Assembly (NCBI GenBank): GCA_015689735.1
Contig: WVSP01000002.1
Coordinates: forward strand, 248,001-312,000
Reading direction: 5' to 3'
Length of the DNA stretch: 64,000 nt
DNA from: Rhodobacterales bacterium LSUCC0031
GTDB lineage: Bacteria > Pseudomonadota > Alphaproteobacteria > Rhodobacterales > Rhodobacteraceae
Both the position numbers and the translations under genes were made by a program. The notes beneath the pieces were generated by a model, which was not told the origin of the DNA, ran no database searches, and saw only the letters and a list, made by a program, of their open reading frames with translations. This document shows positions 11,928 to 38,886 of this stretch, one piece after another. Numbering within the stretch: position 1 is the stretch's first letter; each line of letters starts with the position of its first letter.

Positions 11928-11966
11928 CGCCGCTGTTTTCCCCCTTTCACGCCCTATCGCGCAAAG

Positions 11967-13648: not shown

Positions 13649-15163
13649 ATGATTGAAGGTCTCCTGTTAGGGCTCGCCGCCGCGGTCACGCCTTTCAACC
13701 TGATGATGGTGGTGATGGGCTGCGTGATCGGCACGCTGATCGGCATGTTGCCCGGTCTTGGGCCGATGTCGATCATCGCGATCATGATCCCGATCGCGAT
13801 CAGCATCGGCGATCCGGCCTCCGCCTTGATCCTGTTGTCGGGCGTCTATTACGGCGCGATTTTCGGCGGCTCGACCTCGTCCATCCTGCTCAACGCGCCG
13901 GGGGTCGCAGGAACGGTCGCGACCAGCTTCGATGGCTACCCCATGGCGCGCAAGGGGATGGCGGGCAAGGCCCTGACCATCGCGGCCATCGCAAGTTTCG
14001 CGGGTGGCACGATCGGCACGATCTTGTTGATGATCTTTGCGCCCGCGCTGTCGTCGGTGGCACTTCTGTTCCACTCGGCCGAATATTTCGCGCTGATGGT
14101 CGTGGGGCTGTCGGCGATTGCCGCCTTCGCAGGCACCGGGCAGGTGGGCAAGGCGCTGATGATGACGATCCTTGGCCTGATGATGGGTACGGTGGGCGAA
14201 GGGGCGCTGTCGAACATGCCGCGCTTCACCTTTGGCATCATGGAGCTGCAATCGGGCTTTTCCTTCATCACGCTCGCCATGGCGATGTTTGCCTTGCCCG
14301 AGGCGCTGTTTCTGGTCATGAACCCCGCCCGTGCGGCCACGGATGCAGGTGGCAAGATCACCAATCTACGGATCAGTCGTGACGAGGCCCGCACCATTGC
14401 CCCCGTGATCGGGCGACAATCGATCCAAGGGTTTTTCATCGGTGTTCTGCCGGGGGCAGGCGCGACCATCGCCTCGTTCCTTGGCTATGCGGTCGAGCGC
14501 AACCTTGCCAAGGGCAAGGAGCAGGAGGAATTCGGCCATGGCTCGATCAAGGGGCTGGCCGCGCCGGAATCGGCCAATAACGCGGCTTGCTCGGGCTCGT
14601 TCGTGCCGCTTCTGACCTTGGGCATTCCCGGCTCTGGCACCACGGCGATCTTGCTCGGCGCGCTTTTGGCACTGAGCGTGACACCGGGGCCGCGCCTGAT
14701 GATCGATGAGCCCGATGTGTTCTGGGCGGTCATCATCTCGATGTATATCGGCAATCTGGTCCTTTTGATGCTGAACCTGCCGCTGATCCCATATATCGCG
14801 AAAATCCTCACGATCCCAAGGCAGTATCTTATTCCATTCATCCTGTTTTTCACCTTGATGGGTAGCTATATCGGGCAAAATAACCCGACCGAGTTGCTCA
14901 TCCTCGTGGGCTTCGGCGTGATTGCCACGATCTTGCGCTTTGCCGATTATCCGCTGGCACCCTTGCTGATCGGCTTCATCCTTGGGACGATGATGGAAGA
15001 TAACTTCGCACGCGCGATGCAGCTTTATCGCGGTTTCGATTTCATCATCGAACGGCCGATGACCTTGGCGCTATTGGTTCTTGCGGCGATCCTCGTGGTA
15101 TTGCCAAGCTACCGCGCCCGGCGGGCAAGGCTGCGGGCAGCCGGGGTGGCCGATGGCGACTGA
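13649..15163 (+). CDS. tctA: Tripartite tricarboxylate transporter large permease subunit TctA
   Basis: This is a 504-residue inner-membrane protein with about 11-12 helices. It has the two conserved TctA motifs: GMLPGLGPMSIIAIMIP with YYGAIFGGSTSSILLNAPG in the first half, and the related GVLPGAGATIASFLGYAVE with NAACSGSFVPLLTLGIPGSGTTAILLGAL in the second half. This duplicated pattern is diagnostic. It uses an ion gradient to import the ligand delivered by TctC. Its last 11 bases overlap the start of the CoA-transferase gene, which links uptake with CoA activation in one transcript. Confidence 0.95.
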   Translation: MIEGLLLGLAAAVTPFNLMMVVMGCVIGTLIGMLPGLGPMSIIAIMIPIAISIGDPASALILLSGVYYGAIFGGSTSSILLNAPGVAGTVATSFDGYPMARKGMAGKALTIAAIASFAGGTIGTILLMIFAPALSSVALLFHSAEYFALMVVGLSAIAAFAGTGQVGKALMMTILGLMMGTVGEGALSNMPRFTFGIMELQSGFSFITLAMAMFALPEALFLVMNPARAATDAGGKITNLRISRDEARTIAPVIGRQSIQGFFIGVLPGAGATIASFLGYAVERNLAKGKEQEEFGHGSIKGLAAPESANNAACSGSFVPLLTLGIPGSGTTAILLGALLALSVTPGPRLMIDEPDVFWAVIISMYIGNLVLLMLNLPLIPYIAKILTIPRQYLIPFILFFTLMGSYIGQNNPTELLILVGFGVIATILRFADYPLAPLLIGFILGTMMEDNFARAMQLYRGFDFIIERPMTLALLVLAAILVVLPSYRARRARLRAAGVADGD

Positions 15164-16358
15164 GGCCACGGCCCCCCTGCGCGGCGTGCGGGTTCTCGAT
15201 CTGACCAATGTGTTGGCAGGCCCCTTCGCCTGCCAGCAACTCGCCCATCTGGGCGCCGAGGTGATCAAGATCGAGGCGGTGGGCCGGGGCGATTTGGCGC
15301 GCAACCTCGGTGCCGACCCCGATCTGTCGGCGCGCGGCATGGGGATTAGCTTTCTGGCGCAGAACGCAGGCAAGACCTCGCTCACGCTGAACCTCAAGGA
15401 CGCGCGTGGGCGGGTGATCCTCGAGCAGCTTGTCAAAGATGCCGATGTGCTGGTCGAAAACTTCCGCCCCGGCGTGATGGACCGGCTGGGGGTCGGCCCA
15501 CACCATCTTCGCGCACTTAACCCGCGTTTGATTTACTGCGCGATCTCGGGTTTTGGCCAAACCGGCCCATGGGCGGATCGACCCGCCTATGACCAGATCG
15601 TGCAAGGGGCGGCAGGCGTCATGGCGATCACGGGCGATGCGGGCAGCGCGCCCTTGCGCGTGGGCTACCCGCTTGCCGACACCATCGGTGGCTTGACGGC
15701 CGCCATGGCAATCGCGGCAGCGCTCAATGCCAATCCACGCGGGGCCTTTATCGATGTCTCGATGCTTGAGGCTGTACTCGCGACGATGGGCTGGGTGGTG
15801 TCGAATTACCTTGTCGGCGGTGTCGCCCCTCAACCGCAAGGCAATGAAAACCCGACTTCGGCCCCCTCGGGCATGTTTCAATGCAGCGATGCGCCGATCA
15901 ACATCGCGGCCAATACCGATGAGCAATGGGTGACGCTTGCCCGCCATCTCGGGCGGGCTGACCTGATCGCGACCCCGGATTTCGCCACGCGCGAGGATCG
16001 CAAGCGGAACCGCCACCGCTTGCGCGCCGAACTGGAAACCGTGTTGACGACCCGAGCGGCCGAGATATGGGCCGAGGAATTGGCCGCCATCGGCGTGCCA
16101 GCGGGTGCGGTGATGCGCGTACCTGCGATCTTGGCCCATCCCCAGATCGCGACCCGCGATTTCATCGGCCAGTTCACCGATACCCCCGGCGTTGGCCGTC
16201 CGGTCGATTTGGTGCGGTTGGGGGCGATGATCGATGGGCAACGCCCAAGCGTGACGACGCCACCGCCCGCCCTTGGCCAGCACAGCGATGACATTTTGCA
16301 AGGTCTTGGATATGACGCAAACGCGATCGAAATGCTGCGCGCGGAGGGCGTGATTTGA
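15153..16358 (+). CDS. Class III (CaiB/BaiF/Frc family) CoA-transferase, probably acting on citrate or a related tricarboxylate
   Basis: This 401-residue protein is a complete family III CoA-transferase: LRGVRVLDLTNVLAGPFACQQLAHLGAEVIKIE at the start, NFRPGVMDRLG, ISGFGQTGPW and the predicted catalytic Asp176 in GYPLADTIGG. It should move CoA from a donor thioester to an imported carboxylic acid. It overlaps tctA by 11 bases and the next gene by 4, so it is produced with the transporter. Because the next gene is a citryl-CoA-lyase-like protein, citrate (forming citryl-CoA) is the most economical substrate; this is inference from context. Confidence 0.85.
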   Translation: MATEATAPLRGVRVLDLTNVLAGPFACQQLAHLGAEVIKIEAVGRGDLARNLGADPDLSARGMGISFLAQNAGKTSLTLNLKDARGRVILEQLVKDADVLVENFRPGVMDRLGVGPHHLRALNPRLIYCAISGFGQTGPWADRPAYDQIVQGAAGVMAITGDAGSAPLRVGYPLADTIGGLTAAMAIAAALNANPRGAFIDVSMLEAVLATMGWVVSNYLVGGVAPQPQGNENPTSAPSGMFQCSDAPINIAANTDEQWVTLARHLGRADLIATPDFATREDRKRNRHRLRAELETVLTTRAAEIWAEELAAIGVPAGAVMRVPAILAHPQIATRDFIGQFTDTPGVGRPVDLVRLGAMIDGQRPSVTTPPPALGQHSDDILQGLGYDANAIEMLRAEGVI

Positions 16359-17128
16359 CCGACACAAGCGATGTCGCCGACTGGTGGCGTACCTCCATCA
16401 TCGAGATGACGCCGGGGCGTATCAGCCTGCGTGGAAATCTTGTAGAAGATTTGATCGGCAACATCGGCTTCGCACCGATGATCTGGCTGATGGTCATGGG
16501 CGACAAAATCGAGGGGCCGCGCGCGGCCCTGTTCGAGGCGGCGCTGGTCTCGGCGGTCGATCACGGGCCGCAAGCCCCCTCAATCGCGGCTGCGCGGATG
16601 GCCGCCACCTGTGGGGTGGGGCTGCAATCGGCGATGGCCACGGGGCTGAACATGCTGGGCGATGTGCATGGGGGCGCGGGTGAACAGGCTGTGGCGCTCT
16701 ACCATGCGGTGGCCGAAGCCGATGATCTGGGTCAAGTGCTTGATGATTGGCGGGCCAAACATGGCCCCTACCTCCCCGGATTTGGCCACAGGTTCCATAA
16801 ACCCGTCGATCCCCGCGCGCCGCGCCTTTTGGCGTTGGTCGATCAGGCGGCCGCGGATGGGGCAGTCTCGGGCCATTTCGCCGATGTCGCGCGCGCGATC
16901 GGCGCGCATCTTGCTGCCGAGCGCGGCAAGCCTGTGGCGCTCAATATCGATGGCGCCACGGCGGTGATCTATGCCGAACTTGGCTGCCCCGCACCCTTGG
17001 CGCGCGGTTTCTTCGGCCTCTCGCGCTCGGTCGGTATCCTCGCCCACGCATGGGAACAAATGGAACAGGGCGGGCGCAACAAGGGGCCGACGCCACCTGC
17101 CTATCGCTGGACCTTTGATCCAAGCTGA
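16355..17128 (+). CDS. Citryl-CoA lyase-like protein (citrate synthase superfamily)
   Basis: This 257-residue protein matches the short citrate-synthase-superfamily type that cleaves citryl-CoA to acetyl-CoA and oxaloacetate. All three catalytic positions of citrate synthase are visible: His105 in DVHGGAGEQ, His145 in LPGFGHRFHK followed by DPR, and Asp199 in LNIDGATA. It is far shorter than citrate synthase (about 430 residues). The start is a TTG at 16355 overlapping the CoA-transferase stop, supported by GGAGGG 6 bases upstream. Together with the CoA-transferase it would replace the CitDEF citrate lyase complex. It could instead cleave a homologous acyl-CoA. Confidence 0.82.
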   Translation: MTDTSDVADWWRTSIIEMTPGRISLRGNLVEDLIGNIGFAPMIWLMVMGDKIEGPRAALFEAALVSAVDHGPQAPSIAAARMAATCGVGLQSAMATGLNMLGDVHGGAGEQAVALYHAVAEADDLGQVLDDWRAKHGPYLPGFGHRFHKPVDPRAPRLLALVDQAAADGAVSGHFADVARAIGAHLAAERGKPVALNIDGATAVIYAELGCPAPLARGFFGLSRSVGILAHAWEQMEQGGRNKGPTPPAYRWTFDPS

Positions 17129-20283: not shown

Positions 20284-21183
20284 TCAGGTGAGCCTTGCTG
20301 GGAAGCCCTCGGCGCGCAGATCGGTGCCGAGGGCATCTTCGAGCAGTTTGACGATCTGCGTCGATTGTGCCTCGCCGCCATAGACGGCCTTGCCCTTGAG
20401 GAAGGTCTGGTTGGTCATGCTGGCGAGATCCAGCGGCACGCCGAACTCGCGGCCAAAGCCCATGGCAAAACCCAGATCCTTGAGCGCCAGATCCATGGAA
20501 AAGGCGATGTCGTAGCTGCCGTTCAGGATCAATTGCCCCTCGGTCTCATGCACGAAGGAGGTGCCAGAGGAGGCGGTGATCGCCTCCCACGCAGTTTTCA
20601 GATCCAAGCCGCCGCGCTTGGCCAGCATCAGGGCCTCGCCATCGGCCACCAGATGGATAAAGGCCAGCATGTTGGTGATGACCTTGATGATCGCCGCACT
20701 GCCCAAAGGGCCCATATGGAACAGCTTGTTGCCGATGACCTCGAGTGCCGGGCGGTGCAGCGCCACCAGATCGGCGTCGCCGCCTGCCAGCACCGTGATC
20801 TCGCCCCGCGCGGCCAGATGCACGCCACCCGTCACGGGGGCCTCGAGCAGGCGGATACCGGCGGTCTCGGCCACCGCACCCAGCCGGATGATGTCGTCAC
20901 GCCCAAGGGTCGAGTTCTCGATCCATGTGCTGCCCGGTTTCATCTTGGGCAGGATTTCCCCCAGAACCAGCTCCGACACCGCCGGAGAGGGCAGGCAGGT
21001 AAAGACATGGTCGGTCGCGGCGGCGACTTCGGCGGCACTTCCGGCGACGCTCGCCCCCATCTCGGACAGCCGCACCGCCAGGGCCGGGTCGCGGTCATAA
21101 ACCGTCACTTGATGACCCGCGCGGATCAGGCTTGCCGCGATATGCCCGCCCAGATTGCCCAAACCGATATAGCCGTAATTCAT
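20284..21183 (-). CDS. 3-hydroxyisobutyrate dehydrogenase-family beta-hydroxyacid dehydrogenase
   Basis: This 299-residue protein has the NAD motif YIGLGNLGGHIAASL at the N-terminus, the beta-hydroxyacid-dehydrogenase substrate motif in EAPVTGGVHLAARGEITVLAGG, and the catalytic Lys region IIKVITNMLAF with KDLGFA further on. It should oxidise a beta-hydroxyacid or reduce the matching semialdehyde. It is the last gene of a five-gene operon (29099 to 20284), 5 bases after the aldehyde dehydrogenase gene. The start at 21183 gives the Rossmann strand immediately; longer in-frame starts are unlikely. Confidence 0.86.
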   Translation of the reverse strand: MNYGYIGLGNLGGHIAASLIRAGHQVTVYDRDPALAVRLSEMGASVAGSAAEVAAATDHVFTCLPSPAVSELVLGEILPKMKPGSTWIENSTLGRDDIIRLGAVAETAGIRLLEAPVTGGVHLAARGEITVLAGGDADLVALHRPALEVIGNKLFHMGPLGSAAIIKVITNMLAFIHLVADGEALMLAKRGGLDLKTAWEAITASSGTSFVHETEGQLILNGSYDIAFSMDLALKDLGFAMGFGREFGVPLDLASMTNQTFLKGKAVYGGEAQSTQIVKLLEDALGTDLRAEGFPARLT

Positions 21184-21188
21184 GATCC

Positions 21189-22607
21189 CTATCCCACCAG
21201 TGCCTTGATTTCGCAAAAGTCGTGAATGCCCCAATCGGCATATTCCCGGCCATTGCCCGATTGCTTGTAGCCGCCGAAGGGCGCGAAGGTATCCCAATCG
21301 GGGCCGTTGATGTTGACTTGCCCCGCGCGCAGGCGCCGTGCGACGGCGCGCGCCGCGTCCAAGGGGCCGCTGACGTAAGCCGCCAACCCGTAAACCGTGT
21401 CATTGGCCATGGTGACGGCGTGATCGACGCTGTCATAGCCGATGATCGAGAGCACGGGGCCAAAGATTTCCTCGCGCGCGATGGTCATCTCATGGGTCAC
21501 ATGGCCAAAGACCGTGGGCCGCACGAACCAGCCGTGATTGATGCCGTCGGGGCGGCCAAGACCGCCCGCGGCCAGCGTCGCGCCCTCGCTGATGCCGGTT
21601 TCGATCAAGCCCTGCACCTTGTCCCATTGCGCGCCGGAAATCAGCGGGCCCATCGTGACCTTGGGATCGCTCGGGTCGCCGATGATGACGCTGTCGGCGG
21701 CTACGCGGGCCGCGTCCATCGCCGCGGCCATCCTGCCCATCGGCACGAACATGCGCGTCGGTGCATCGCAGCTTTGGCCGGTATTGCCGAAGCAAGCGCG
21801 CGTCCCGGCCGCGACCGCATCCGCCAGATCGGCGTCGGGCAAGATGATATTGGCCGATTTCCCGCCCAATTCCTGGGCCACGCGCTTGACCGTAGGGGCA
21901 GCCGCCTCAGCCACCGCTACGCCCGCGCGCGTCGATCCGGTAAAGGACACCATATCGACCTGAGGATGCGCGGCCACCACCGCGCCGACATCCGCACCTG
22001 TGCCTTGCACAAGGTTGAAAACGCCCGCAGGCACACCCGCCTGATCGCACAACTCGGCAAACAGCAGCGCCGACAAAGGCGCCAGTTCCGAGGGTTTCAA
22101 GACCATCGTGCAGCCTGCGGCCAGTGCCGGGGCGACCTTGCAGACGATCTGGTTCATCGGCCAGTTCCACGGGGTGATCAGCGCGCAAACGCCGATCCCC
22201 TCGCGGATGATGCGGGTTGACCCGCGCTGTTCTTCCCAATGAAAATCGCGGGCGGCCTTGATCGTCGTTTCCAGATGGATCTGACCCGCCCATGCCTGCG
22301 CCTCGCGGGCGGCGGTGATGGGCGCGCCCATCTCGTCGGACATGGCTTGCGCGATCTCGTCGAAGCGGGCGGTGTAGGCGGAAAAAAGCCCCTCAAGCAG
22401 TCCAATCCGATCAGCAACTGGCCATGCCGAAAAGCTGTCGAATGCCGTGCGCGCCGCCACCACCGCGCGATGGGCGTCATCCCCATTGCCCAAAGCCAGA
22501 TCGCCAAGGCTTGCCCCGGTCGCAGGGTTTTCGACCGGCATGGTCGCGCGGCCCAAGGGCGTGACCCATGCGCCACCGACATAATGCTGGGACAGGCGGT
22601 GCAGCAT
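21189..22607 (-). CDS. Aldehyde dehydrogenase family protein
   Basis: This is a 472-residue NAD(P)-dependent aldehyde dehydrogenase. The NAD-binding GSTRAGVAVAEAA, the general base Glu in ELGGKSANI and the catalytic Cys in NTGQSCDAPTR are all present, as is the C-terminal FAPFGGYKQSGNGRE. Its length is near the family norm. It lies between the MttB-like methyltransferase (6 bases upstream) and the beta-hydroxyacid dehydrogenase (5 bases downstream). It probably oxidises an aldehyde produced when the amine or betaine substrate of this operon is broken down. The family is broad, so the substrate is not predictable. Confidence 0.9.
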   Translation of the reverse strand: MLHRLSQHYVGGAWVTPLGRATMPVENPATGASLGDLALGNGDDAHRAVVAARTAFDSFSAWPVADRIGLLEGLFSAYTARFDEIAQAMSDEMGAPITAAREAQAWAGQIHLETTIKAARDFHWEEQRGSTRIIREGIGVCALITPWNWPMNQIVCKVAPALAAGCTMVLKPSELAPLSALLFAELCDQAGVPAGVFNLVQGTGADVGAVVAAHPQVDMVSFTGSTRAGVAVAEAAAPTVKRVAQELGGKSANIILPDADLADAVAAGTRACFGNTGQSCDAPTRMFVPMGRMAAAMDAARVAADSVIIGDPSDPKVTMGPLISGAQWDKVQGLIETGISEGATLAAGGLGRPDGINHGWFVRPTVFGHVTHEMTIAREEIFGPVLSIIGYDSVDHAVTMANDTVYGLAAYVSGPLDAARAVARRLRAGQVNINGPDWDTFAPFGGYKQSGNGREYADWGIHDFCEIKALVG

Positions 22608-22613
22608 GCGGCC

Positions 22614-24206
22614 CTACTGAAAGTAGATGTTGAAACGCTTGCGGATCGCCACGTCGATCTCGGGCGAGACCTGACAGCCCGCGCTGGCGAGGATCGCGTT
22701 CTTGCGCGCAATCGCGGTGTCGAGCAGCAGGGGCTGGCCCGCCTCGACCCATTCCTTGGGGCTCATGCGGTTCCCGACCTTGGGATAGACATATTCTGTC
22801 TGCATCAAGCCCAGCGTTTGATCCGTGCCAAGGTAATGGCCCGGCCCACCCAGGCAGACCTGCTTCATCGCGTCGATCGAGGTGCTGTCCTCGGTCACGT
22901 CGATCCCGCGCACCAGCCGCATGGCTTGCCCCAGGATGTCATCGCCCAAGACCAGGCTTTCGAGACAGAACCCCAACAGCGAGGCATGCATGCCCACCGT
23001 CTCGTAGCACATGTTGAGCCCCGAAAGCCCCGCCAGCGCATTGGTGATGCCCTGTTCCCAGCCTGCCTGCATGTCGGGCAGCTTGCTGTCCGAAATCCCC
23101 GAGGCAGCTCCACCGGGCAGATCATAGAAGCGGTGCATCTGCGCGCAGCCCGCCGTGAGCAGCGCCTGTTCGGCCGATCCGCCCGACATTGCGCCTGTGC
23201 GCAGATCGCTGACAAAGGGCCAGGTGCCGAAGATCGCAGGCGCGCCCTTCTTGATCGCGTTGACATAAACGACACCCGCGAGGCACTCGGCCACGGCCTG
23301 CACGATCGCCAGCGCGATGGGGGCGGGGGCCGTGGCGCCCGCTTGCCCCGCTGACAACAGAAGCATCGGCATGCCACGGCGGATGCAATCCTCCATCGTG
23401 ATGCAGCTTTCTTCGGCAAATTTCATCGGCGGGACGACGAAGCAATTGGAATTGCTGACAAATGGCCGTTCCAGCCATTTCTCCTCACCGCCCGCCACCA
23501 TGTGCAGCATCTCGAAGCAATCGGCGACATGGGCCGGATCGCTGAAGGATGTGCCGACATGCTTTTTCGTGCCTGCGAGACAGGCATAAAGCGTATTGAG
23601 GTCCATCTCGCGATTGTCCTTCACATCGCGGCAAACCATCGTGCGCTGGTAGAAATGAATATTGTCGAGGTTATCGACCAGCCGTGCGCCGTCATACAAA
23701 TCCTGCGCAGTCGACTCGCGATATTCATGGGTCACGGGGTCCACGATATGCACCGCCGCCCCCGCCGTGCCGAAATGCACATTGGTGCCGGAGAGATGCA
23801 TGTCGTGCTTGGGGTCGCGGGCATGAAGCGTGATGTTGCGCGCGGCGACGGCCAGCATGTCTTCGACCAGCGCGCGGGGAAAGCGGATGCGCCCGTCATC
23901 GCCTTGAATCGCGCCTGCACCCGTGAGGATCTCGACGCCCGAGGGTGGCGCATCGGCCAGTCCAATCACCTCCAACGCTTCAAGGGCGCTTTGATGGATC
24001 TTTTCCATCCCGGCATCGCTAATGGGGCGATATTGGCCACCGGGCATGCCGGGGCGAATGGGGCGCTTGTCTTCGGCTAAGGGGGCCGCGCGCAGCGCGA
24101 CCCTTGCTGCCCGCCCGCCCGAACGCCGCGCGCGCGCGGGCTCGCAGGTTTCGCCGATTTCCGGCACGTCGTTTTCTGCCATTTGGCTTTCCGGTATCAT
24201 GGTCAC
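22614..24206 (-). CDS. MttB-superfamily (trimethylamine methyltransferase family) protein, non-pyrrolysine type
   Basis: This 530-residue protein matches the MttB superfamily of TIM-barrel methyltransferases, with a disordered N-terminus (about 1-50), then GMEKIHQSALEALEVIG, later MEDCIRRGMPMLLLSAGQAGATAPA and a C-terminal KNAILASAGCQVSPEIDVAIRKRFNIYF. It reads through without an amber codon, so it is the non-pyrrolysine type typified by glycine betaine methyltransferase MtgB. Such enzymes pass a methyl group from a quaternary amine to a corrinoid protein, yet no corrinoid-protein gene is visible nearby. It overlaps the upstream flavoprotein gene by 4 bases via a GTG start (24204-24206); ATG starts at 24200 or 24182 are alternatives. 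Confidence 0.85.
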   Translation of the reverse strand: MTMIPESQMAENDVPEIGETCEPARARRSGGRAARVALRAAPLAEDKRPIRPGMPGGQYRPISDAGMEKIHQSALEALEVIGLADAPPSGVEILTGAGAIQGDDGRIRFPRALVEDMLAVAARNITLHARDPKHDMHLSGTNVHFGTAGAAVHIVDPVTHEYRESTAQDLYDGARLVDNLDNIHFYQRTMVCRDVKDNREMDLNTLYACLAGTKKHVGTSFSDPAHVADCFEMLHMVAGGEEKWLERPFVSNSNCFVVPPMKFAEESCITMEDCIRRGMPMLLLSAGQAGATAPAPIALAIVQAVAECLAGVVYVNAIKKGAPAIFGTWPFVSDLRTGAMSGGSAEQALLTAGCAQMHRFYDLPGGAASGISDSKLPDMQAGWEQGITNALAGLSGLNMCYETVGMHASLLGFCLESLVLGDDILGQAMRLVRGIDVTEDSTSIDAMKQVCLGGPGHYLGTDQTLGLMQTEYVYPKVGNRMSPKEWVEAGQPLLLDTAIARKNAILASAGCQVSPEIDVAIRKRFNIYFQ

Positions 24207-26647
24207 ATCCGCACCCGTTCGGCTTTGGGGTCATAAAGGGGGGTCAGGCTTGCGCGGGCCTTGTGCCGCACGCCCGCCACTTCGATTTCGTAAGTGCTGG
24301 CCATGACCTGGTCGGCGCTTTCACCGGGGCAGGGGACATAGCCCATCCCGATTGCGCCGCCCAAGGCATGGCCGTAATTGCCGCTGGTTACCGGGCCGAC
24401 GATCTGGCCATCGCGCAAGATCGCCTCGTTATGGAACAAGAGCGGGTCGGGGTTTTCGAGTTGGAATTGCAGCATCATCCGCGCAAGCCCCTGATCTTGC
24501 TTGCGAAGCACCGCGTCGCGGCCGATGAAATCGCCCTTGGTTGTCTTGACGGCAAAGCCGAGGCCTGCCTCCAGCACATGATCCTCATCCGTGATGTCAT
24601 GGCCGAAATGGCGATAAGCCTTCTCGATCCGGCAGCTATCCAGCGTGTGCAGTCCGCAAAGCTTCAGCCCGTGACCCGCGCCTGCCTCGCGCAAGGTCTC
24701 AAAGACATGGGCGGCCATGTCGGTCGAAACATAAAGCTCCCACCCCAGTTCGCCGACGTACGAGATACGATGCGCCCGCGCGAGGCCCATGCCGATCTCG
24801 ATCTCGCGCGCGGTGCTGAAGGCAAAGCCCTTGTGGCTCAGATCATCGGGGCTGACCGCCGACAACAGATCGCGCGCGTTCGGCCCCATCACACAAAAAA
24901 CGGCTTCCGCCGCCGTCATATCGACGATGGCGACTGCATCATCGCCCTGATGGCGGCGCAGCCATGCCAGATCACGTTGCAGCGTGGCGCCCGGCACGAC
25001 CAGCAGATAGGCGGTTTCCGACAAGCGCGTGACCGTCAGATCGCTTTCGATGCCGCCGCGATCGTTGAGCATCTGCGTATAGACGACCCGACCCACCGCC
25101 ACATCGATCTGGTTGGCGCAAAGCCGGTTGAGGAAAGCGCAAGCATCGCGCCCCTCGACCCGGATCTTGCCGAAAGACGTCATGTCGAACAGGCCCACGG
25201 CTTCGCGCACGGCCATATGTTCGGCACGCTGGTTGCCGAACCAGTTCTGGCGGCCCCAGCTATAGCGGTATTCCCTTTCCTGCCCCGGATCGGCGAACCA
25301 ATTGGCGCGTTCCCAGCCCGCAACCTCGCCGAACACGGCACCTTCGGCCTTGAGATGTTCATGGATGGGCGAGCGGCGCACGCCGCGCGCGGTTTCCACC
25401 TGACGATAGGGCCAGTGATCGGCGTAAAGCAGGCCCAAGGTCTCGGTCACGCGTTCCTTCAGATAGCGGCGGTTGCGCTGGAAGGGCTGGGCGCGGCGGA
25501 TATCAACCTCCCACAGGTCAAAGGGCGGCTCGCCTTCGGTGATCCAGTGCGCCAGCGCCATGCCCGCACCGCCCGAGGACACGATCCCGATGGAGTTGTA
25601 GCCCGCCGCGACCCAATAGCCCTTCAGTTCCGGCGCCTCGCCCAAGTAGTAGCGATCATCGGGGGTGAAGCTTTCGGGACCGTTGAAGAAGGTGTGGATG
25701 CCCGCCGTCTGGAACATCGGCATGCGCTTGGTCGCCATCTCGAGGATCGGCTCGAAATGCTCGAAATCCTCGGGCAGGGCGTCAAAGCAGAAATCCTCGG
25801 GGATACCGCCCATTCCCCATGGCTTGGCCTTGGGCTCGAATGCACCGAGCATCATCTTGCCGGCATCGGATTTGTAATAGGCGCATTCATCAGGCACGCG
25901 CAGAACCGGCAAATGTCCAAGCCCTTCAATGGGTTCGGTCACAAGGTAAAAGTGCTCGCAGGCGTGTAGCGGCAAGGTGACGCCCGAAGCTGCCGCCAGA
26001 TCGCGGCCCCACATGCCGCCGCAGTTGATCACCACATCGGCGGCGATATGACCCTGTTCTGTGCCGTTGTCCCAGTTCACGCCGGTCGCGCGCGCCCCGT
26101 CATCGGTGACGGCGGTGACCTTGACCCCTTCGATGATCTGGGCGCCCGCCATCCGTGCGCCCTTGGCCAGCGCCATGGCGATATTGGCCGGGTCGCATTG
26201 CCCGTCGAGCGGCAGATGCAGCGCGCAGGTGACATCGCCGATTTCCACATGCGGATACATGGCGCGCACTTCGGCGGTGGTGATCTCATGCACCTCGACG
26301 CCGAATGTGCGGGCAACGGTCGCTTGCCTCAGCAATTCCTCGCGCCGGTCGGCGGTCAGGCCCAGCGAGATCGAGCCAACCTGCCGCATGCCGGTGGCGA
26401 CGCCGGTTTCCGCCTCGAGCTTGGTATAAAGCTCGGCCGAATACTTGGCGAGCCGCGTCATGTTCTGGCTGCCACGCAACTGGCCGACCAGCCCCGCCGC
26501 ATGCCATGTCGTGCCGCAGGTCAGCTGCTTGCGCTCCAATAGCACGATGTCGGTCCAGCCGAGCTTGGCCAAATGATAGGCCACTGAACAGCCCGAGACA
26601 CCACCGCCGATAATGACCGCGCGCGCATGTGATGGGGGTTTTGCCAT
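24203..26647 (-). CDS. Dimethylglycine/sarcosine dehydrogenase-like flavoprotein with GcvT domain (A)
   Basis: This 814-residue two-domain protein has an N-terminal FAD-dependent amine oxidase (DAO) domain (about 8-400) with VIIGGGVSGCSVAYHLAKLG and the GTTWHAAG motif whose His49 is the covalent FAD site in dimethylglycine dehydrogenase. The C-terminal half (about 430-800) is a GcvT-like tetrahydrofolate domain, recognisable from GLFDMTSFGKI, SYVGELGWELYV, LHTLDSCRIEKAYRHFGHDI and a closing TSGNYGHALGGAIGMGYV. It should oxidise an N-methyl group and hand the one-carbon unit to folate. It is paired with a paralogue 4 bases upstream and the MttB-like gene downstream. Confidence 0.9.
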   Translation of the reverse strand: MAKPPSHARAVIIGGGVSGCSVAYHLAKLGWTDIVLLERKQLTCGTTWHAAGLVGQLRGSQNMTRLAKYSAELYTKLEAETGVATGMRQVGSISLGLTADRREELLRQATVARTFGVEVHEITTAEVRAMYPHVEIGDVTCALHLPLDGQCDPANIAMALAKGARMAGAQIIEGVKVTAVTDDGARATGVNWDNGTEQGHIAADVVINCGGMWGRDLAAASGVTLPLHACEHFYLVTEPIEGLGHLPVLRVPDECAYYKSDAGKMMLGAFEPKAKPWGMGGIPEDFCFDALPEDFEHFEPILEMATKRMPMFQTAGIHTFFNGPESFTPDDRYYLGEAPELKGYWVAAGYNSIGIVSSGGAGMALAHWITEGEPPFDLWEVDIRRAQPFQRNRRYLKERVTETLGLLYADHWPYRQVETARGVRRSPIHEHLKAEGAVFGEVAGWERANWFADPGQEREYRYSWGRQNWFGNQRAEHMAVREAVGLFDMTSFGKIRVEGRDACAFLNRLCANQIDVAVGRVVYTQMLNDRGGIESDLTVTRLSETAYLLVVPGATLQRDLAWLRRHQGDDAVAIVDMTAAEAVFCVMGPNARDLLSAVSPDDLSHKGFAFSTAREIEIGMGLARAHRISYVGELGWELYVSTDMAAHVFETLREAGAGHGLKLCGLHTLDSCRIEKAYRHFGHDITDEDHVLEAGLGFAVKTTKGDFIGRDAVLRKQDQGLARMMLQFQLENPDPLLFHNEAILRDGQIVGPVTSGNYGHALGGAIGMGYVPCPGESADQVMASTYEIEVAGVRHKARASLTPLYDPKAERVRM

Positions 26648-26651
26648 GATG

Positions 26652-29099
26652 TCAGGCCCTCAACCGGCTATTGTCAGGGTCCCAAAGCGGACCATCGGGC
26701 TGCACCACCGCCGCGCAGCGATGCCCGTAGATATCGACCTCGATCTTGGTGCCAGGATGGGCCAGATCGGCGCGCAACATGCCGAGCGCGACGGACGCAC
26801 CAACCCGGTAGCCCCAAGCCCCGGATGTGGTTTCACCCACGACTTGGCCGTCATGCCAGAGCGTTGACATGTAGGGCGCATCCGCCGCCCCTGCATCGAC
26901 CGTCAAGGTCACAAAGCGTTTGGCCACACCTGCCTGTTTTTCACTCAAAAGCGCCTGTTTGCCGGGGAAATCCTGCGCCTTGTCAAAGCGAATGAAGCGA
27001 TCAAGGCCGCCCTGCAACAGGCTGTAATCCGTGGACAAGTCGCCTTTCCATGCGCGATAGCCCTTTTCGATGCGCAGGCTGTTCAGCGCGAACATGCCGA
27101 AGGGTTTGGCCCCTTGGTTCAAGATCGCGTCATAAATAGCTGGGATATGGTCAATTTCGGCATGAACCTCCCATCCCAATTCGCCTGCGAAGGACACCCG
27201 CGCCAGCCAGCAGGGTTGGCCCGCCAGATGCGCCTTCTGATGGGTCAGCCACGGCAGGGTTAGGTCGGCATCGGTGCCGATGGCGGCCAGCAGCGCGCGC
27301 GATCTGGGGCCGGTCACGATCAGCGTGCCGATCTCGCGGCTTTGGTCTGCCAAGGACAGGCCGGGGGGCAGGTCGCGCTCTAGCCATTCGCGGTCATGCC
27401 ATTGCGCGACGGCCGCCGTGATCAGCGTATAGTCGTCAGGCCCGTGGCAGGCGACCGACATCTCGGTCACGATGCGGCCACGCGTATCGGGGAAATAGGC
27501 AAGCCCCAGCCGCCCCGGTTTTGGCAAACCACCCGATATCTTGCCCAAAAGCCATTCACCCGCGCCATCCCCCGTCAGGCGGAAGCGCGAAAAGCCGGGT
27601 AGATCGAGCACGCCCACATCATCGCGCACGGCCTCGCATTCCTCGCGGATGCGCGCTTCCCAGGGGCCGGCGCGGTTCCAAGTCTGGGTCGCCTCCTCGG
27701 AGGTATCGTCGCCCGGTTGCGCGAACCAATTCGCGCGTTCCCAGCCGCCATAGGCGCCCATCTGCCCGCCCAGCGCCTTCACCCGTTCATGGACGGGCGA
27801 AACCTTGCGGTCGGGCGCGGCAGGCCAGCGGTGCCAGGGGAAATGCATGGCGTATTCGTGGCCATAGACCTCCATGCCCTTTTGCACGCAATAATCATGA
27901 TCAGTGTAATCGGTGAACCGGCGCGGGTCGCAGGACCACATGTCCCATTCCGTCGCGCCCTCCGTGATCCACTCGGCCAGAACCTTGCCCGCGCCACCGC
28001 CCTGCGCGATGCCAAAGGTAAAGACGCAGGCCTCGAACGCATTTGGCACGCCCGGCATCGGCCCGATCAGCGGGTTGCCATCGGGCGTATAGGGGATGGG
28101 GCCGTTGATGACGCGGGCAAGCCCGGCCTCGGCCAATAACGGTACACGCGCCATCGAATCCTCGATCTGGAAGGACAGCCGCTCCAGATCGTCGGGGTAA
28201 AGCTGAAAGCTGAAATCCTCGGGCATGGGATCGGCGGGGTCGGCCCAATGCGCCCGGCATGGCCGCTCATAGGGGCCGAGGTTGAAGCCGTTCTTTTCCT
28301 GACGCAGGTAGTACGAGGTATCGACATCGCGCAGAAGCGGCAGCTTGTGACCGGCCGCTTGCGCCCAATCGCGGATTTCCGGCACTTCGTCAAAGACCAT
28401 GTATTGATGGCTCATCACCATCATCGGCACGGTGCGACCGCCATAGGGCTTGAACCATTCGCCCACACGCTGCGCATAGTATCCGGCCGCATTGACGACG
28501 ATCTCGCAGCGGATATCGCCCTTTTCGGTATGCACGATCCATTCGTCGTTTTCACGGCTGACGCCCGTGGCGGGGCAGAACCGCGCGATGGTCGCCCCCA
28601 TGTCGCGCGCCCCCTTGGCCAACGCTTGGGTCAGCTGTGCGGGGTCGATATCGCCATCGGCCGGATCGTAAAGCGCGCCCTTGAGGTCATGTGTCTCGAT
28701 GAAGGGGTATTTATCCTTGATCTCGCCAGGGCTGAGGATTTCCAGCTTCATCCCTTGATAAAGTCCCATGCCGCGCGCGCGGGCAAATTCCTGCATCCGC
28801 TCGTCGGAATGCGCAAGCCGGATGGACCCGGTCACATGGTAGTTCATCGGGTAATCGACCGCCGCCCCAAGCCCGCGATAAAGCTCGGTCGAGTAACGCT
28901 GCATGTTCATCAGCGACCAAGACGTGGAAAATGTCGGCACATTGCCCGCTGCATGCCAGGTCGAGCCTGCGGTCAACTCGTTTTTCTCGAGCAGAACGCA
29001 ATCGGTCCAGCCTGCACGTGCCAGATGATAGAGCGCCGAAACTCCAACAACGCCGCCGCCGATGATCACAACGCGCGCATGACGCGGTAAATCCGACAT
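26652..29099 (-). CDS. Dimethylglycine/sarcosine dehydrogenase-like flavoprotein with GcvT domain (B)
   Basis: This 815-residue paralogue of the next gene has the same two-domain order. VIIGGGVVGVSALYHLARAG and GSTWHAAG (His49, probable covalent FAD link) lie in the oxidase half. The GcvT half (from about residue 470) contains GVLDLPGFSRFRLTG, SFAGELGWEVHAEID, LNSLRIEKGYRAWKGDL and TSGAWGYRVGASVALGMLR. The two copies differ in the substrate-facing loops, which suggests different N-methylated substrates or successive demethylations. It is the first gene of the operon; the start at 29097-29099 follows a GGGGGA ribosome site. The divergent LysR gene starts 105 bases away. Confidence 0.9.
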   Translation of the reverse strand: MSDLPRHARVVIIGGGVVGVSALYHLARAGWTDCVLLEKNELTAGSTWHAAGNVPTFSTSWSLMNMQRYSTELYRGLGAAVDYPMNYHVTGSIRLAHSDERMQEFARARGMGLYQGMKLEILSPGEIKDKYPFIETHDLKGALYDPADGDIDPAQLTQALAKGARDMGATIARFCPATGVSRENDEWIVHTEKGDIRCEIVVNAAGYYAQRVGEWFKPYGGRTVPMMVMSHQYMVFDEVPEIRDWAQAAGHKLPLLRDVDTSYYLRQEKNGFNLGPYERPCRAHWADPADPMPEDFSFQLYPDDLERLSFQIEDSMARVPLLAEAGLARVINGPIPYTPDGNPLIGPMPGVPNAFEACVFTFGIAQGGGAGKVLAEWITEGATEWDMWSCDPRRFTDYTDHDYCVQKGMEVYGHEYAMHFPWHRWPAAPDRKVSPVHERVKALGGQMGAYGGWERANWFAQPGDDTSEEATQTWNRAGPWEARIREECEAVRDDVGVLDLPGFSRFRLTGDGAGEWLLGKISGGLPKPGRLGLAYFPDTRGRIVTEMSVACHGPDDYTLITAAVAQWHDREWLERDLPPGLSLADQSREIGTLIVTGPRSRALLAAIGTDADLTLPWLTHQKAHLAGQPCWLARVSFAGELGWEVHAEIDHIPAIYDAILNQGAKPFGMFALNSLRIEKGYRAWKGDLSTDYSLLQGGLDRFIRFDKAQDFPGKQALLSEKQAGVAKRFVTLTVDAGAADAPYMSTLWHDGQVVGETTSGAWGYRVGASVALGMLRADLAHPGTKIEVDIYGHRCAAVVQPDGPLWDPDNSRLRA

Positions 29100-29204
29100 G
29101 TGCTGTCCCCCTTTTATCTCTCGCGACAGTATTCCCCTAGCAAGACCCGAGTTCAATTCGCCGCAGAGATGTGTATTGATCGGATAAATCGATTAGGACA
29201 GACC

Positions 29205-30062
29205 ATGACCCTAGAGCAGATCGAAACCTTTTTGGACCTGTGCGAGACGCGCAGTTTCAACCGCACCGCCAACCGTCTGGGGGTGACGCAATCGACCATC
29301 TCGGGGCGGGTGCAGGCGCTTGAGGCGGCGTTGGGCTGCAAGCTCTTGGAGCGGAGCCGCGCAGGCACCGACCTCACCACCGAAGGGCTAAGGTTCGAAC
29401 CGCATGCACGCGCCTTGCGCAATGGTTGGACGGCCGCGGGCCAAGCGGTCAAAGGTGCAGGCAATGCCGCGATGGCCATGCGGATCGGCATCCAGCATGA
29501 TCTGTTGGGCGATCAGGTGGCCCAATGGGTCAAGGCGGTGCAAGGGGCGGTGCCTGACACGGCGCTTTACGTCGAGGCCGATTACTCCGCCCAGATGTGT
29601 GCCGATGTGCGCGACGGCCAGCTTGATCTGGCTATTCACTACACGCCCAAACCCCATCCTGATCTGCATTTCGAAACGCTGGGCGAGGTCAGCTATGTCA
29701 TGGTCTCGACCGAGGTTGAGGATCTGGCCGATATCCGCGCCGAAAGCTACATCTTGCCCAATTACGCCCCGGCTTTTTCCGCAACCCATGCGGCGCTGTT
29801 GCCAATGCTATCGGTTGGCATCGTCTCAAGCGGGCAGAACGCCGTGATCCGGGGGCTTTTGACGGCGCTTGGCGGCAGCACCTATGTGCTACGTGCCACG
29901 GCGCTTGATCTAGAAAAGATGGGGCTTGCCCGGCGCGTGGCAGGTGCGCCACGGATCGATCAGCCGGTTTATGCAGCGCTCCATCTGCGCAATCGTCACC
30001 GGGGCGCGCATCGGCGGATCTTGCGCGCGCTCAAGGCGCATCTGACCGCACGATCGGCCTAG
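29205..30062 (+). CDS. LysR family transcriptional regulator of the amine operon
   Basis: This 285-residue LysR protein starts with LEQIETFLDLCETRSFNRTANRLGVTQSTISGRVQALEAALG, the standard winged helix, followed by a periplasmic-binding-protein-like effector domain. The ATG at 29205 is preferred because it begins right at the HTH; a 35-residue extension is open but unlikely. It is divergent from the dimethylglycine-dehydrogenase-like operon and probably activates it in response to the amine or betaine. Its 3' end overlaps the next, convergent LysR gene by 32 bases. Confidence 0.9.
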   Translation: MTLEQIETFLDLCETRSFNRTANRLGVTQSTISGRVQALEAALGCKLLERSRAGTDLTTEGLRFEPHARALRNGWTAAGQAVKGAGNAAMAMRIGIQHDLLGDQVAQWVKAVQGAVPDTALYVEADYSAQMCADVRDGQLDLAIHYTPKPHPDLHFETLGEVSYVMVSTEVEDLADIRAESYILPNYAPAFSATHAALLPMLSVGIVSSGQNAVIRGLLTALGGSTYVLRATALDLEKMGLARRVAGAPRIDQPVYAALHLRNRHRGAHRRILRALKAHLTARSA

Positions 30063-34869: not shown

Positions 34870-36030
34870 ATGGATTTCGGCCTAAGTGCGGAACAGCAGA
34901 TGATCGTTGATACGGTGCGCGACTTTGTCGAGACCGAGATCTATCCGCACGAAGCCGCGGTCGAGAAAACCGGCATCGTGCCGCCCGAATTGGCCGCCGA
35001 TCTGCGTGCCAAGGTCATCGAGATGGGCTTTTGGGCCTGCAATTTCCCGACTGACATCGGCGGTGGGGGCCTTGGCCATCTCGAATTCACGCTGGTCGAG
35101 CGGGAGCTGGGGCGCGGGTCGATGGCGCTGACGCATTTTTTTGGCCGACCGCAGAATATCCTTATGGCCTGCGAAGGCGATCAGCGCGAACGCTACCTCT
35201 TGCCTGCCGTGCGGGGTGAGCGGATGGATGCGCTGGCGATGACCGAACCCGATGCCGGCTCGGATGTGCGGGGGATGAAATGCGCCGCTGTCCGGGATGG
35301 CGGCGATTGGGTCGTCAACGGCACCAAGCATTTCATCTCGGGCGCCGATCACGCGGATTTCTTCATCGTTTTTGCTGCCACCGGCGTCGATGACACGCCG
35401 CATGGGCCGAAAAAGCGCATCACCTGTTTTCTGGTCGATCGCGGGCATCCCGGCTTTACCGTGCGCGATGGCTACAATTCCGTCAGCCACAGGGGCTACA
35501 AGAACTGCATCCTCGAATTCGACGATTGCCGCTTGCCGGATGCCCAAGTGCTGGGCGCGGTCGATGGTGGGTTCGATGTGATGAACACTTGGCTTTATGC
35601 CACGCGGCTGACGGTTGCGGCGTTTTCCGTTGGCCGTGCGCGCCGGTGCTTTGATCACGCCGTCGATTACGCGGCCCAGCGTCGCCAATTCGGCCAACAG
35701 ATCGCCAAGTTCCAAGGCGTGAGTTTCCAGATCGCTGACATGATCACCGAGATCGATGCCGCCGATCTGATGACGCTTTCGGCGGCTTGGCGGCTGGATC
35801 AAGGCCTGCCCGCCAACCGCGAGATTGCATCAGCCAAGCTTTACGCCACCGAGATGCTGGCGCGTGTCACCGACACCACGCTGCAAATCCATGGCGGGAT
35901 GGGCTTGATGGATGATCTGCCGATCGAGCGTTTCTGGCGCGATGCAAGGGTCGAGCGCATCTGGGACGGTACATCCGAGATCCAGCGCCATATCATCGGG
36001 CGCGAGATTTTCCGCCCCAAGGGGGCCTGA
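34870..36030 (+). CDS. Acyl-CoA dehydrogenase (probable crotonobetainyl-CoA reductase/gamma-butyrobetainyl-CoA dehydrogenase, CaiA-like)
   Basis: This 386-residue flavoenzyme has the family signatures MTEPDAGSD and the C-terminal QIHGGMGLMDDLPIERFWRDARVERIWDGTSEIQRHIIGR. The Glu in RVERIWDGTSE is the expected active-site region for CaiA-type and medium-chain members. It heads the carnitine island, 2 bases before the acyl-CoA synthetase gene, so it most likely oxidises gamma-butyrobetainyl-CoA to crotonobetainyl-CoA in the aerobic direction, passing electrons to ETF. The assignment to betaines comes from the neighbouring CaiD and carnitine dehydrogenase; motifs alone only give the family. Confidence 0.85.
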   Translation: MDFGLSAEQQMIVDTVRDFVETEIYPHEAAVEKTGIVPPELAADLRAKVIEMGFWACNFPTDIGGGGLGHLEFTLVERELGRGSMALTHFFGRPQNILMACEGDQRERYLLPAVRGERMDALAMTEPDAGSDVRGMKCAAVRDGGDWVVNGTKHFISGADHADFFIVFAATGVDDTPHGPKKRITCFLVDRGHPGFTVRDGYNSVSHRGYKNCILEFDDCRLPDAQVLGAVDGGFDVMNTWLYATRLTVAAFSVGRARRCFDHAVDYAAQRRQFGQQIAKFQGVSFQIADMITEIDAADLMTLSAAWRLDQGLPANREIASAKLYATEMLARVTDTTLQIHGGMGLMDDLPIERFWRDARVERIWDGTSEIQRHIIGREIFRPKGA

Positions 36031-36032
36031 GG

Positions 36033-38075
36033 ATGGAGCCGCTCTCGCGCCTCTTGCGCCCCCGCTCCATCGCCGTCATCGGCGGAGGGGCGTGGTGCGC
36101 CGCCGTCATCACCCAGTGCCGCAAGATCGGCTTTGCTGGCCCGATCTGGCCGGTGCATCCGGCCAAGGCGCAGATCGCGGGGCTGCGGGCCTACCCCTCC
36201 ATCGCTGATCTCCCCGAAGCGCCCGATGCAAGCTTCATCGGCGTCAACCGCGAGGCCAGCATCGCGGTGCTGCGCGATCTGTCCACGCGGGGCGCGGGGG
36301 GCGCTGTCTGTTTCGCCTCGGGCTTTCGCGAGTCGGCGGCCGAGACCGGCGATGGCGCCGCGCTCGAGGCCGCCTTGGTCGAAGCCGCCGGGCCGATGCG
36401 GATTCTGGGGCCGAATTGCTACGGCTTTCTGAACCTGCTGGATGGTGCGGCGCTCTGGCCCGATCAGCATGGGGCCTTGCGCGTGGATCGGGGCGTGGCG
36501 CTGATCACCCAATCCTCCAACATCGCGATCAACCTGACGATGCAGACCCGTGGCCTGCCCATCGCCTATGCGGTCACGGCGGGCAATCAGGCCCAGACGG
36601 GCATGGCCGAGATTGCAAGCGCGCTTGTCGAAGATCCGCGCGTCACGGCCCTTGGCCTGCATATCGAGGGGATCGGCGATCTGGCGGGCTTTGCCGCGAT
36701 GGCTGCAAAGGCGCAGGCCTTGGGCAAGCCCATCGTGGCGGTCAAGGCGGGTGCCTCGGATCAGGCGCGGGTGGCGGCCGTTTCGCACACAGGTTCGCTT
36801 GCGGGCAGCGATGCGGGGGCGGATGCGCTGTTTGCCCGGCTTGGCATCGCGCGGGTGGGGGGCTTGGCCGAACTTCTCGAGGCGCTGAAGATCCTGCATG
36901 TGGTGGGCGGGCTTGCATCGCCTGACATCGCCTCGATGTCCTGTTCGGGGGGCGAGGCGGGGCTGATGGCCGATCTGGGCGTGCGCGCGGGGCTTTGTTA
37001 TCCAGCCCTGACCCCGCGCCAGCACAAGGATTTGCACGCGGCCCTCGGCCCCAAGGTGGCGCTTGCCAACCCCTTGGATTACCACACCTATATCTGGGGC
37101 GATCAAGCCGCGATCACGCGGGCCTTTTGTGCGATGATGGCGCCGCACCTGGCGATGGGCGTCGTGGTACTGGATTTCCCGCGCCCCGACCGCTGTGAAA
37201 GTGCTGCATGGGATTTGGTGGTCAACGCGGTCGAGGCCACGCGCGCGGCGACCGAGCGACCCATGGCGATCATGGCCAGCCTGCCCGAAACCATGCCCGA
37301 GACCGTCGCCGCCGATATGATCGCGCGCGGCATCGTGCCTTTGGCCGGAATGGCCGAAGGTTTGGCCGCCATTGCCGCTTGCGCCCGCATCGGTCGCCAC
37401 CGGCCTGATGACGCGCCCCTGATCCTGCCCGGCCCTGCGCCCATCGGGCAGCAGCTTTTGTCCGAAGCCGAAGGGAAGGCAATGCTGTCGGCCCATGGTG
37501 TGCCGGTGCCGCGCGGGCATCAGGCCACAACCCCCGATTCGGCAGCCCTTGTGGCGGCGGGTTTGGGTTCTCCCGTCGTGCTCAAGGGGCTTGGTCATGC
37601 CCACAAGACCGAGGCCGGCGCTGTCGCGCTTAATCTAAGCAGCGCCGAGGCCGTCTATGTGGCGGCAACTCGGATGGGCGGGGTTGCATTTCTTGTAGAA
37701 GAAATGGTGACGGGTGCGGTGGCCGAGATCCTTGTCGGCATCATCCGCGATCCGGCGCATGGTTTCGTCCTGACACTGGGGGCGGGGGGCGTTCTGACCG
37801 AGATCATGGCTGACACCCAATCGCTGCTTTTGCCTGCAAGCGCGGATGAAATTGCTGCGGCCCTTGATCGGTTGCGTATCGCGCCGCTGTTGCGGGGCTA
37901 TCGCGGCAAGCCGCCCGCCGACATGGCGGCTCTGGTCACGGCCATTCTGGCGGTGCAGGACTGCGCCATCGCTGAGGCCGGGCGGCTCATCGAGTTGGAG
38001 ATCAACCCGCTCATCGCCACGCCAGACTGCGCCGTCGCGGTCGATGCCCTGATCCGCTTGGGAGAGACATCATGA
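36033..38075 (+). CDS. NDP-forming acyl-CoA synthetase (acetate--CoA ligase family), probable betaine-CoA ligase
   Basis: This 680-residue protein has the order of ADP-forming acyl-CoA synthetases: a CoA-binding Rossmann domain (RPRSIAVIGGGAW), two succinyl-CoA-synthetase-like domains with the phospho-histidine in VSHTGSLAGSDAG, and a C-terminal ATP-grasp domain (from about 465, with VLKGLGHAHKTEAGAVAL and ELEINPLI). It would activate a carboxylic acid with CoA and ATP, forming ADP and phosphate. In this operon the logical substrate is gamma-butyrobetaine, crotonobetaine or carnitine, replacing the CaiC/CaiB pair. It overlaps caiD by 4 bases. Confidence 0.85.
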   Translation: MEPLSRLLRPRSIAVIGGGAWCAAVITQCRKIGFAGPIWPVHPAKAQIAGLRAYPSIADLPEAPDASFIGVNREASIAVLRDLSTRGAGGAVCFASGFRESAAETGDGAALEAALVEAAGPMRILGPNCYGFLNLLDGAALWPDQHGALRVDRGVALITQSSNIAINLTMQTRGLPIAYAVTAGNQAQTGMAEIASALVEDPRVTALGLHIEGIGDLAGFAAMAAKAQALGKPIVAVKAGASDQARVAAVSHTGSLAGSDAGADALFARLGIARVGGLAELLEALKILHVVGGLASPDIASMSCSGGEAGLMADLGVRAGLCYPALTPRQHKDLHAALGPKVALANPLDYHTYIWGDQAAITRAFCAMMAPHLAMGVVVLDFPRPDRCESAAWDLVVNAVEATRAATERPMAIMASLPETMPETVAADMIARGIVPLAGMAEGLAAIAACARIGRHRPDDAPLILPGPAPIGQQLLSEAEGKAMLSAHGVPVPRGHQATTPDSAALVAAGLGSPVVLKGLGHAHKTEAGAVALNLSSAEAVYVAATRMGGVAFLVEEMVTGAVAEILVGIIRDPAHGFVLTLGAGGVLTEIMADTQSLLLPASADEIAAALDRLRIAPLLRGYRGKPPADMAALVTAILAVQDCAIAEAGRLIELEINPLIATPDCAVAVDALIRLGETS

Positions 38076-38857: not shown

Positions 38858-38879
38858 CGGATTTTCGTACGAAAATCCG
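38858..38879. promoter_or_regulatory. Perfect 22-bp palindrome (copy 1) between caiD and the BKACE gene
   Basis: A perfect 22-bp palindrome with core TTTTCGTACGAAAA starts right after the caiD stop codon. It is either a protein-binding operator for a regulator not encoded in this window, or an RNA hairpin. A sister copy follows 29 bases downstream (centre to centre). Confidence 0.7.
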
Positions 38880-38886
38880 CAATATG

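Follow-up and report, generated by a model that had tools for sequence, protein, structure and literature searches.

We analysed a 64,000-nucleotide stretch of contig WVSP01000002.1 of Rhodobacterales bacterium LSUCC0031 (hereafter, the window), in which an operon at 20284–29099 encodes two flavoproteins similar to dimethylglycine dehydrogenase (DMG1 and DMG2), a homologue of the methyltransferase MttB, an aldehyde dehydrogenase (ALDH) and a beta-hydroxyacid dehydrogenase. This operon, which recurs in many Rhodobacteraceae, probably serves to remove N-methyl groups in three steps from a trimethylammonium betaine, relying on an unlinked corrinoid protein, MtgC, held in common with methionine synthesis. 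Such a reading is based on the genes themselves, on their conserved linkage, on a set of MtgC-, MtgD-, MtgE- and RamA-like proteins and on co-occurrence across genomes. Publications on systems of this kind go back to 2025; the novelty here would lie in a widespread and distinct MttB clade with a pocket signature of its own, apparently tied to a pair of proteins resembling dimethylglycine dehydrogenase (DMGDH) and sarcosine dehydrogenase. Searches of an open-access library brought up no description of this clade or of the operon.

According to open reading frames (ORFs) and Pfam matches, the five genes are closely packed on the minus strand, with a divergent LysR gene beside them (Table 1), just as the original prediction for this DNA had described. 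The MttB homologue matches PF06253 with 358 bits (cut-off 25) over positions 1–489 of the 500-position profile, and so belongs to the superfamily. Its frame has no internal stop and therefore no pyrrolysine codon, while its score against TIGR02369, the model for pyrrolysine trimethylamine methyltransferase, is 330 bits, under the cut-off of 525; the earlier assignment as a non-pyrrolysine MttB is thus confirmed. Both flavoproteins have a solved DMGDH (4pab) as their best solved match (541 bits for DMG1, 461 for DMG2), and also match dimethylglycine oxidase 1pj5 (286 and 399 bits, respectively); they resemble these two enzymes over the full length, and likeness in substrate is a prediction. At residue 46 they carry the motifs STWHAAG (DMG1) and TTWHAAG (DMG2), the histidine of which we take to be FAD-linking. 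By four-domain architecture and this motif, both belong to the dimethylglycine/sarcosine dehydrogenase family. DMG2 is presumably the sarcosine-dehydrogenase-like partner, as we judge from its place in the pair and from its motifs.

A search of the whole genome with profiles gave six matches to PF02310 (B12-binding) and one to PF14574 (activase), all outside the window. When the MtgC, MtgD and RamA of this genome served as tblastn queries, the window likewise gave no match at E<=1e-5. The original prediction, too, had seen no corrinoid protein or reactivase here, but its proposal of a system without a corrinoid protein is not supported: the genome search it suggested yields one unlinked, stand-alone MtgC-like protein, listed in Table 1. 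Directly before it lies a gene for an MtgE-like protein of the homocysteine-methyltransferase family (PF02574; PRK07534, 594 bits, cut-off 338), and an MtgD-like pterin-binding methyltransferase (PF00809) adjoins a RamA-type activase (PF14574, PF17650, PF17651) at about 595.5–598.9 kb of contig C2. Judged by family match and gene place, the MtgC/D/E/RamA-like set is encoded whole in the genome. The original prediction had also said that a corrinoid protein and an activator elsewhere, if co-regulated, would speak against it; their presence is what we see. The remaining five PF02310 proteins are two resembling methylmalonyl-CoA mutase, BchE, and two short, weak matches (275 and 297 aa). BchE (L015 2965–4584, on contig C3 of the genome) scores 841 bits (cut-off 481), and the host therefore probably makes bacteriochlorophyll.

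The closest described counterpart is the MtgBCD/MtgE system of Ruegeria pomeroyi DSS-3 (PMC12478193). There, a non-pyrrolysine PF06253 protein goes with unlinked MtgC, MtgD, MtgE and RamA, and the later demethylations are ascribed to flavoproteins. The unlinked corrinoid protein is required for glycine betaine demethylation: mtgC and mtgD mutants are methionine auxotrophs and fail to grow on glycine betaine even when methionine is supplied. The role of RamA comes from proteomics and homology. The authors count as many as seven PF06253 genes in a genome and suggest further methylated substrates. Unlike that system, the MttB homologue of the window shares an operon with both flavoproteins and with the hydroxyacid and aldehyde dehydrogenases, and its clade is without the MtgB contact residues discussed below; the likeness was judged by family match and gene place.

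Co-occurrence was counted in 394 genomes of the family, one per genus and two for the window's own genus, with MtgC scored at E<=1e-50. Any MttB and MtgC were found together in 353 genomes, MttB without MtgC in 16, MtgC without MttB in 10 and neither in 15 (odds ratio 33). Among 42 low-contig genomes, PF06253 genes are present in 41, and each of these, LSUCC0031 included, has exactly one MtgC at E<=1e-100. The other one (G150), lacking PF06253 genes, has an MtgC match of just 33% in a frame of 1297 aa, which by its length is MetH-like. PF06253 genes number 22 in G200 and 12 in G193; the other 41 low-contig genomes have 0–8. For the window clade, defined as a best match at E<=1e-180 (225 genomes; 12 others, whose best matches were weaker at 1e-106 to 1e-147, were scored as lacking it), the link is to DMG1: at E<=1e-200, DMG1 is present in 215 of the 225 genomes with the clade and in 31 of the 169 without (odds ratio 96). 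Moving the 12 weaker-match genomes across gives 225 of 237 and 21 of 157. The co-occurrence of DMG1 and the clade, along with the corrinoid set elsewhere, leads us to the view that three N-methyl groups are most likely removed, one via the corrinoid and two onto folate; with three successive demethylations, the substrate should therefore be a trimethylammonium compound.

In such a scheme, the MttB homologue would take a methyl group off the quaternary nitrogen and place it on Co(I) of the unlinked MtgC, a partner that we infer and that the split methionine synthase of the cell probably uses as well. From MtgC, the methyl group could pass via the pterin enzyme MtgD to folate or via MtgE to homocysteine, and RamA would re-reduce inactive cobalt. 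Judging by family, DMG1 would then oxidise an N-methyl group of the dimethylamine product and deliver it to folate as 5,10-methylene-tetrahydrofolate (methylene-THF), and DMG2 would take off the last methyl group likewise. As a guess, the remainder may be processed by the hydroxyacid and aldehyde dehydrogenases. The earlier idea of betaine demethylation with methyl groups passed to folate is kept in this stepwise form, by family and linkage; direct transfer from MttB to a GcvT domain, also proposed, is unnecessary. If a single corrinoid protein does serve several enzymes of the MttB type, aerobic bacteria would have the breakdown of several methylated osmolytes linked to vitamin B12.

Conservation of the locus was followed in the 80 best named relatives (78–96% identical, hence close kin and not independent), counting those loci that had sufficient flank. 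Beside MttB, DMG1 and LysR were each found in 61 of 61 loci, DMG2 in 63 of 64, the hydroxyacid dehydrogenase in 62 of 63 and ALDH in 47 of 63, and a GMC oxidoreductase follows in 7 of 63; the arrangement is non-random. The whole operon occurs in Tabrizicola, Gemmobacter, Roseicyclus and similar genera. In a second set of 40 loci from 39 genomes, hand-picked across 68–96% identity and including some of the genomes of the first set, DMG1, DMG2, MttB and the hydroxyacid dehydrogenase stand together in 17, a partial set in 8 (one of them truncated where its contig stops), and in 15 MttB has neither DMG1, DMG2 nor the hydroxyacid dehydrogenase nearby. Where the genes are scattered, DMG1 and DMG2 form a pair away from MttB: 22 of 26 genomes tested have a DMG1 orthologue (65–100%), and in all of these except G378 (21 of the 22) a DMG2-like gene lies no more than about 5 kb away; the four without DMG1 are also without the window MttB clade. 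Fifteen of these separate DMG1/DMG2 clusters were read, and all have an XRE-type regulator upstream of DMG1, recognised by eye, while at least 10 of them have an ORF resembling homocysteine S-methyltransferase between DMG1 and DMG2 (PF02574 was confirmed for one). Finally, LysR, DMG1, DMG2 (matching in several pieces in Sinorhizobium) and MttB are present on a Shinella and a Sinorhizobium plasmid, with no hydroxyacid dehydrogenase found within 12 kb. From the two arrangements and the rhizobial loci, MttB, DMG1 and DMG2 look like a functional unit, and ALDH and the hydroxyacid dehydrogenase look like parts of its whole-operon form. One locus (L088) has a gene of the phosphoenolpyruvate-mutase family (PF13714, 249 bits) at 11085–11930, between DMG2 and MttB, and a similar ORF is seen in 13 of 75 named loci. 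The neighbour names HutF, HutC, XRE, cystathionine-synthase-like and bhc were assigned by eye rather than by family search.

Several observations weigh against a cassette served by an unlinked MtgC. The top NCBIfam match of the MtgC-like protein is indeed MtgC, at 192 bits, under the cut-off of 370. Homologues of MtgC, MtgD and RamA are absent (tblastn, E<=1e-5) from all 124 MttB-centred loci (L048–L171, of which L090 and L091 are distant relatives), while 3 of 10 loci fetched around paralogue p1, a further MttB encoded by the LSUCC0031 genome, include MtgC in their 20 kb (L172, L173 and L174). Of the 16 genomes with MttB and no MtgC, 11 are less than 90% complete and 5 at least 90%. The window clade itself is more weakly linked to MtgC, found in 217 of the 225 genomes with it and 146 of the 169 without (odds ratio 4.3), since MtgC is kept by most genomes regardless; DMG1, in turn, occurs in the 31 genomes mentioned above that lack the clade, and all these counts ignore kinship. 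Lastly, the scheme does not explain the two dehydrogenases. ALDH has 6x9l as its best solved match (510 bits) and stays under all cut-offs among the 25 of 41 NCBIfam matches listed. A betaine-aldehyde dehydrogenase was considered and rejected (376 bits, cut-off 669), 6x9l being nearer than the betaine aldehyde dehydrogenases. The best solved match of the hydroxyacid dehydrogenase is 2-hydroxymethyl glutarate dehydrogenase 3cky (146 bits); it is under all 14 listed NCBIfam cut-offs, and with 154 bits against 292 it fails the equivalog model of 3-hydroxyisobutyrate dehydrogenase, TIGR01692. As no listed cut-off was reached, family models name no substrate for either enzyme.

The nature of the betaine turns largely on the MttB pocket. 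MtgB of Desulfitobacterium hafniense (2qne, 9yce) and the window MttB have a superfamily and, by homology, a fold in common (183 bits). According to passages of PMC6855144, glycine betaine in MtgB is predicted, from docking only, to contact Y94, N199, R309 and H345. These positions are G, F, G and E in the window MttB and in 27 of 27 aligned clade members, which were chosen from the loci at hand; the alignment is least sure at N199, next to a one-residue gap. The glutamate is E401, invariant in 25 rows of alignment A1. In contrast, paralogue p1 (C2:707423) has Y, N, R and H, as do 10 relatives (11 of 11); in paralogue p2 and 6 relatives, S is followed by N, R and H (7 of 7). Of two plasmid relatives that are more distant, one shows G, H, S, E and the other G, H, S, Q. 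In the tree, 2qne, itself a long branch like 7xcl, clusters with p1 and p2 (100/99), and the window clade is separate from them, again on a long branch. With none of the four predicted contacts and no grouping with 2qne, the window MttB is unlike MtgB in these two respects, and the MtgC found near p1 in three loci favours p1 as the usual MtgB of the family. An AlphaFold model of the window MttB, made from 25 close sequences, reached a mean predicted local distance difference test score of 54 and was judged unusable.

For a trimethylammonium compound other than glycine betaine, possibly with a primary hydroxyl by the carboxylate, we see a chance just short of even. It would explain the presence of the hydroxyacid and aldehyde dehydrogenases, and it agrees with the changed pocket, with the separate clade and with the tight linkage to a dehydrogenase of the 3-hydroxyisobutyrate type whose nearest solved relative handles 2-hydroxymethyl glutarate, as well as with the occasional GMC oxidoreductase. 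The genome, moreover, already has an MttB in which the MtgB contacts are kept, and encodes two DMGDH-like proteins besides DMG1 and DMG2. Against this, neither a transporter nor any other gene indicates the compound, the 15 of 40 loci with a solitary MttB fit it poorly (as far as the locus neighbourhood goes), and so do the two rhizobial loci. Since the clade is present in 225 of 394 family genomes, whatever it acts on is probably a compound of common occurrence, and, the altered pocket being conserved, a single purified enzyme would be enough to test the point.

Glycine betaine itself has only a slightly smaller chance: MttB would be an alternative MtgB, DMG1 the dimethylglycine dehydrogenase and DMG2 the sarcosine dehydrogenase, leading to glycine. 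The operon for conversion of carnitine to glycine betaine starts 4.8 kb past LysR in the window, and bhc genes (glycine/glyoxylate cycle, recognised by eye) come after MttB in two loci, four of them in L074 and at least two in L083. Two PF06253 proteins of R. pomeroyi increase on glycine betaine (PMC12478193), and its dimethylglycine and sarcosine dehydrogenases (SPO3400 and SPO3396; PMC4744692) have near locus numbers, like DMG1 and DMG2, the likeness being one of locus numbers alone. However, the predicted contacts are all missing in the clade and kept in p1, an argument from docking alone, and this route has no place for a hydroxyacid dehydrogenase linked in 62 of 63 loci. The original prediction also listed carnitine and homarine. 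Carnitine is less probable as a direct substrate, as the adjoining carnitine 3-dehydrogenase operon would convert it to glycine betaine. Homarine, with its single N-methyl group, fits poorly with two demethylases and an MttB, and was set aside on this reasoning; one literature passage has Mgd taking part in its pathway.

A bolder and rather unlikely extension is that the clade represents a new MttB substrate class degrading a hydroxylated betaine, such as the free headgroup of betaine lipids, together with the two flavoproteins, the 3-hydroxyisobutyrate-type dehydrogenase and an ALDH or GMC enzyme. To our knowledge, no catabolic route for this headgroup has been described. In a still bolder variant, glycine and methylene-THF may yield serine, then aminoacetaldehyde and again glycine through the two dehydrogenases, a cycle burning methyl groups.

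A private corrinoid protein missed in the 7-contig draft, 96% complete, is highly improbable: weaker B12-binding proteins (the 275- and 297-aa matches) are also present, but exactly one MtgC occurs in each low-contig PF06253 genome, this one included. The least credible option is that MttB hands its methyl group directly to a GcvT domain or to folate; the window and the 124 loci without MtgC, MtgD or RamA homologues would suit it, but the genome encodes a complete corrinoid set, which follows the distribution of MttB across the family, and the characterised enzymes of the MttB family, as far as we know, methylate Co(I). Passages of PMC6855144 support such Co(I) methylation.

Table 1. Features of the demethylation operon, its surroundings and the unlinked corrinoid protein (positions are those of the window unless contig C2 is given)
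Feature	Position	Strand	Evidence
DMG1, dimethylglycine-dehydrogenase-like flavoprotein, 815 aa	26652–29099	-	Pfam DAO, FAO_M, GCV_T, GCV_T_C
DMG2, second flavoprotein, architecture as DMG1, 814 aa	24203–26647	-	Pfam DAO, FAO_M, GCV_T, GCV_T_C
MttB homologue, non-pyrrolysine, PF06253, 530 aa, GTG start	22614–24206	-	Pfam MTTB
Aldehyde dehydrogenase (ALDH), 472 aa	21189–22607	-	Pfam Aldedh, 477 bits
Beta-hydroxyacid dehydrogenase, 3-hydroxyisobutyrate dehydrogenase family, 299 aa	20284–21183	-	Pfam NAD_binding_2 and NAD_binding_11
Intergenic region between divergent DMG1 and LysR	29100–29204		Sequence
LysR-type regulator, divergent	29205–30062	+	Pfam HTH_1 and LysR_substrate on 29187–30062
MtgC-like stand-alone corrinoid protein, 235 aa	C2:754397–755104		PF02310 and PF02607, DIHDIG motif

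From DMG1 onward, the genes of the operon are separated by a 4-base gap, a 4-base overlap, a 6-base gap and a 5-base gap. The starts of DMG1 and LysR are 105 bases apart if LysR begins at the ATG at 29205, and no sigma-70-like site was called in the intergenic region between them.

Related clusters are found both in the window and beyond it. The carnitine/gamma-butyrobetaine operon leading to glycine betaine (34870–42015, plus strand) encodes an acyl-CoA dehydrogenase, a CoA-ligase-like protein, a protein resembling crotonobetainyl-CoA hydratase (342 bits, cut-off 500), a BKACE protein, a short-chain dehydrogenase/reductase and a carnitine 3-dehydrogenase that also carries a fused thioesterase domain (718 bits, cut-off 592). 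It adjoins an ABC transporter of the oligopeptide/nickel type (42012–47200, minus strand), composed of an ATPase, two permeases and a binding protein. At 15081–17128 (plus strand), a citryl-CoA lyase (398 bits, cut-off 261) adjoins a CaiB-type CoA-transferase-like protein. The megaplasmid of R. pomeroyi (NC_006569, 339974–349294; L091 9929–19249) has a similar cluster, with an MttB 45% identical to that of the window, two FAD-dependent oxidoreductases similar to DMG1 and DMG2, and a LysR; it differs in having a class III aminotransferase and an enzyme resembling sulfoacetaldehyde acetyltransferase (401 bits, cut-off 620) instead, and could, by its gene content, belong to a pathway of the taurine-betaine type.

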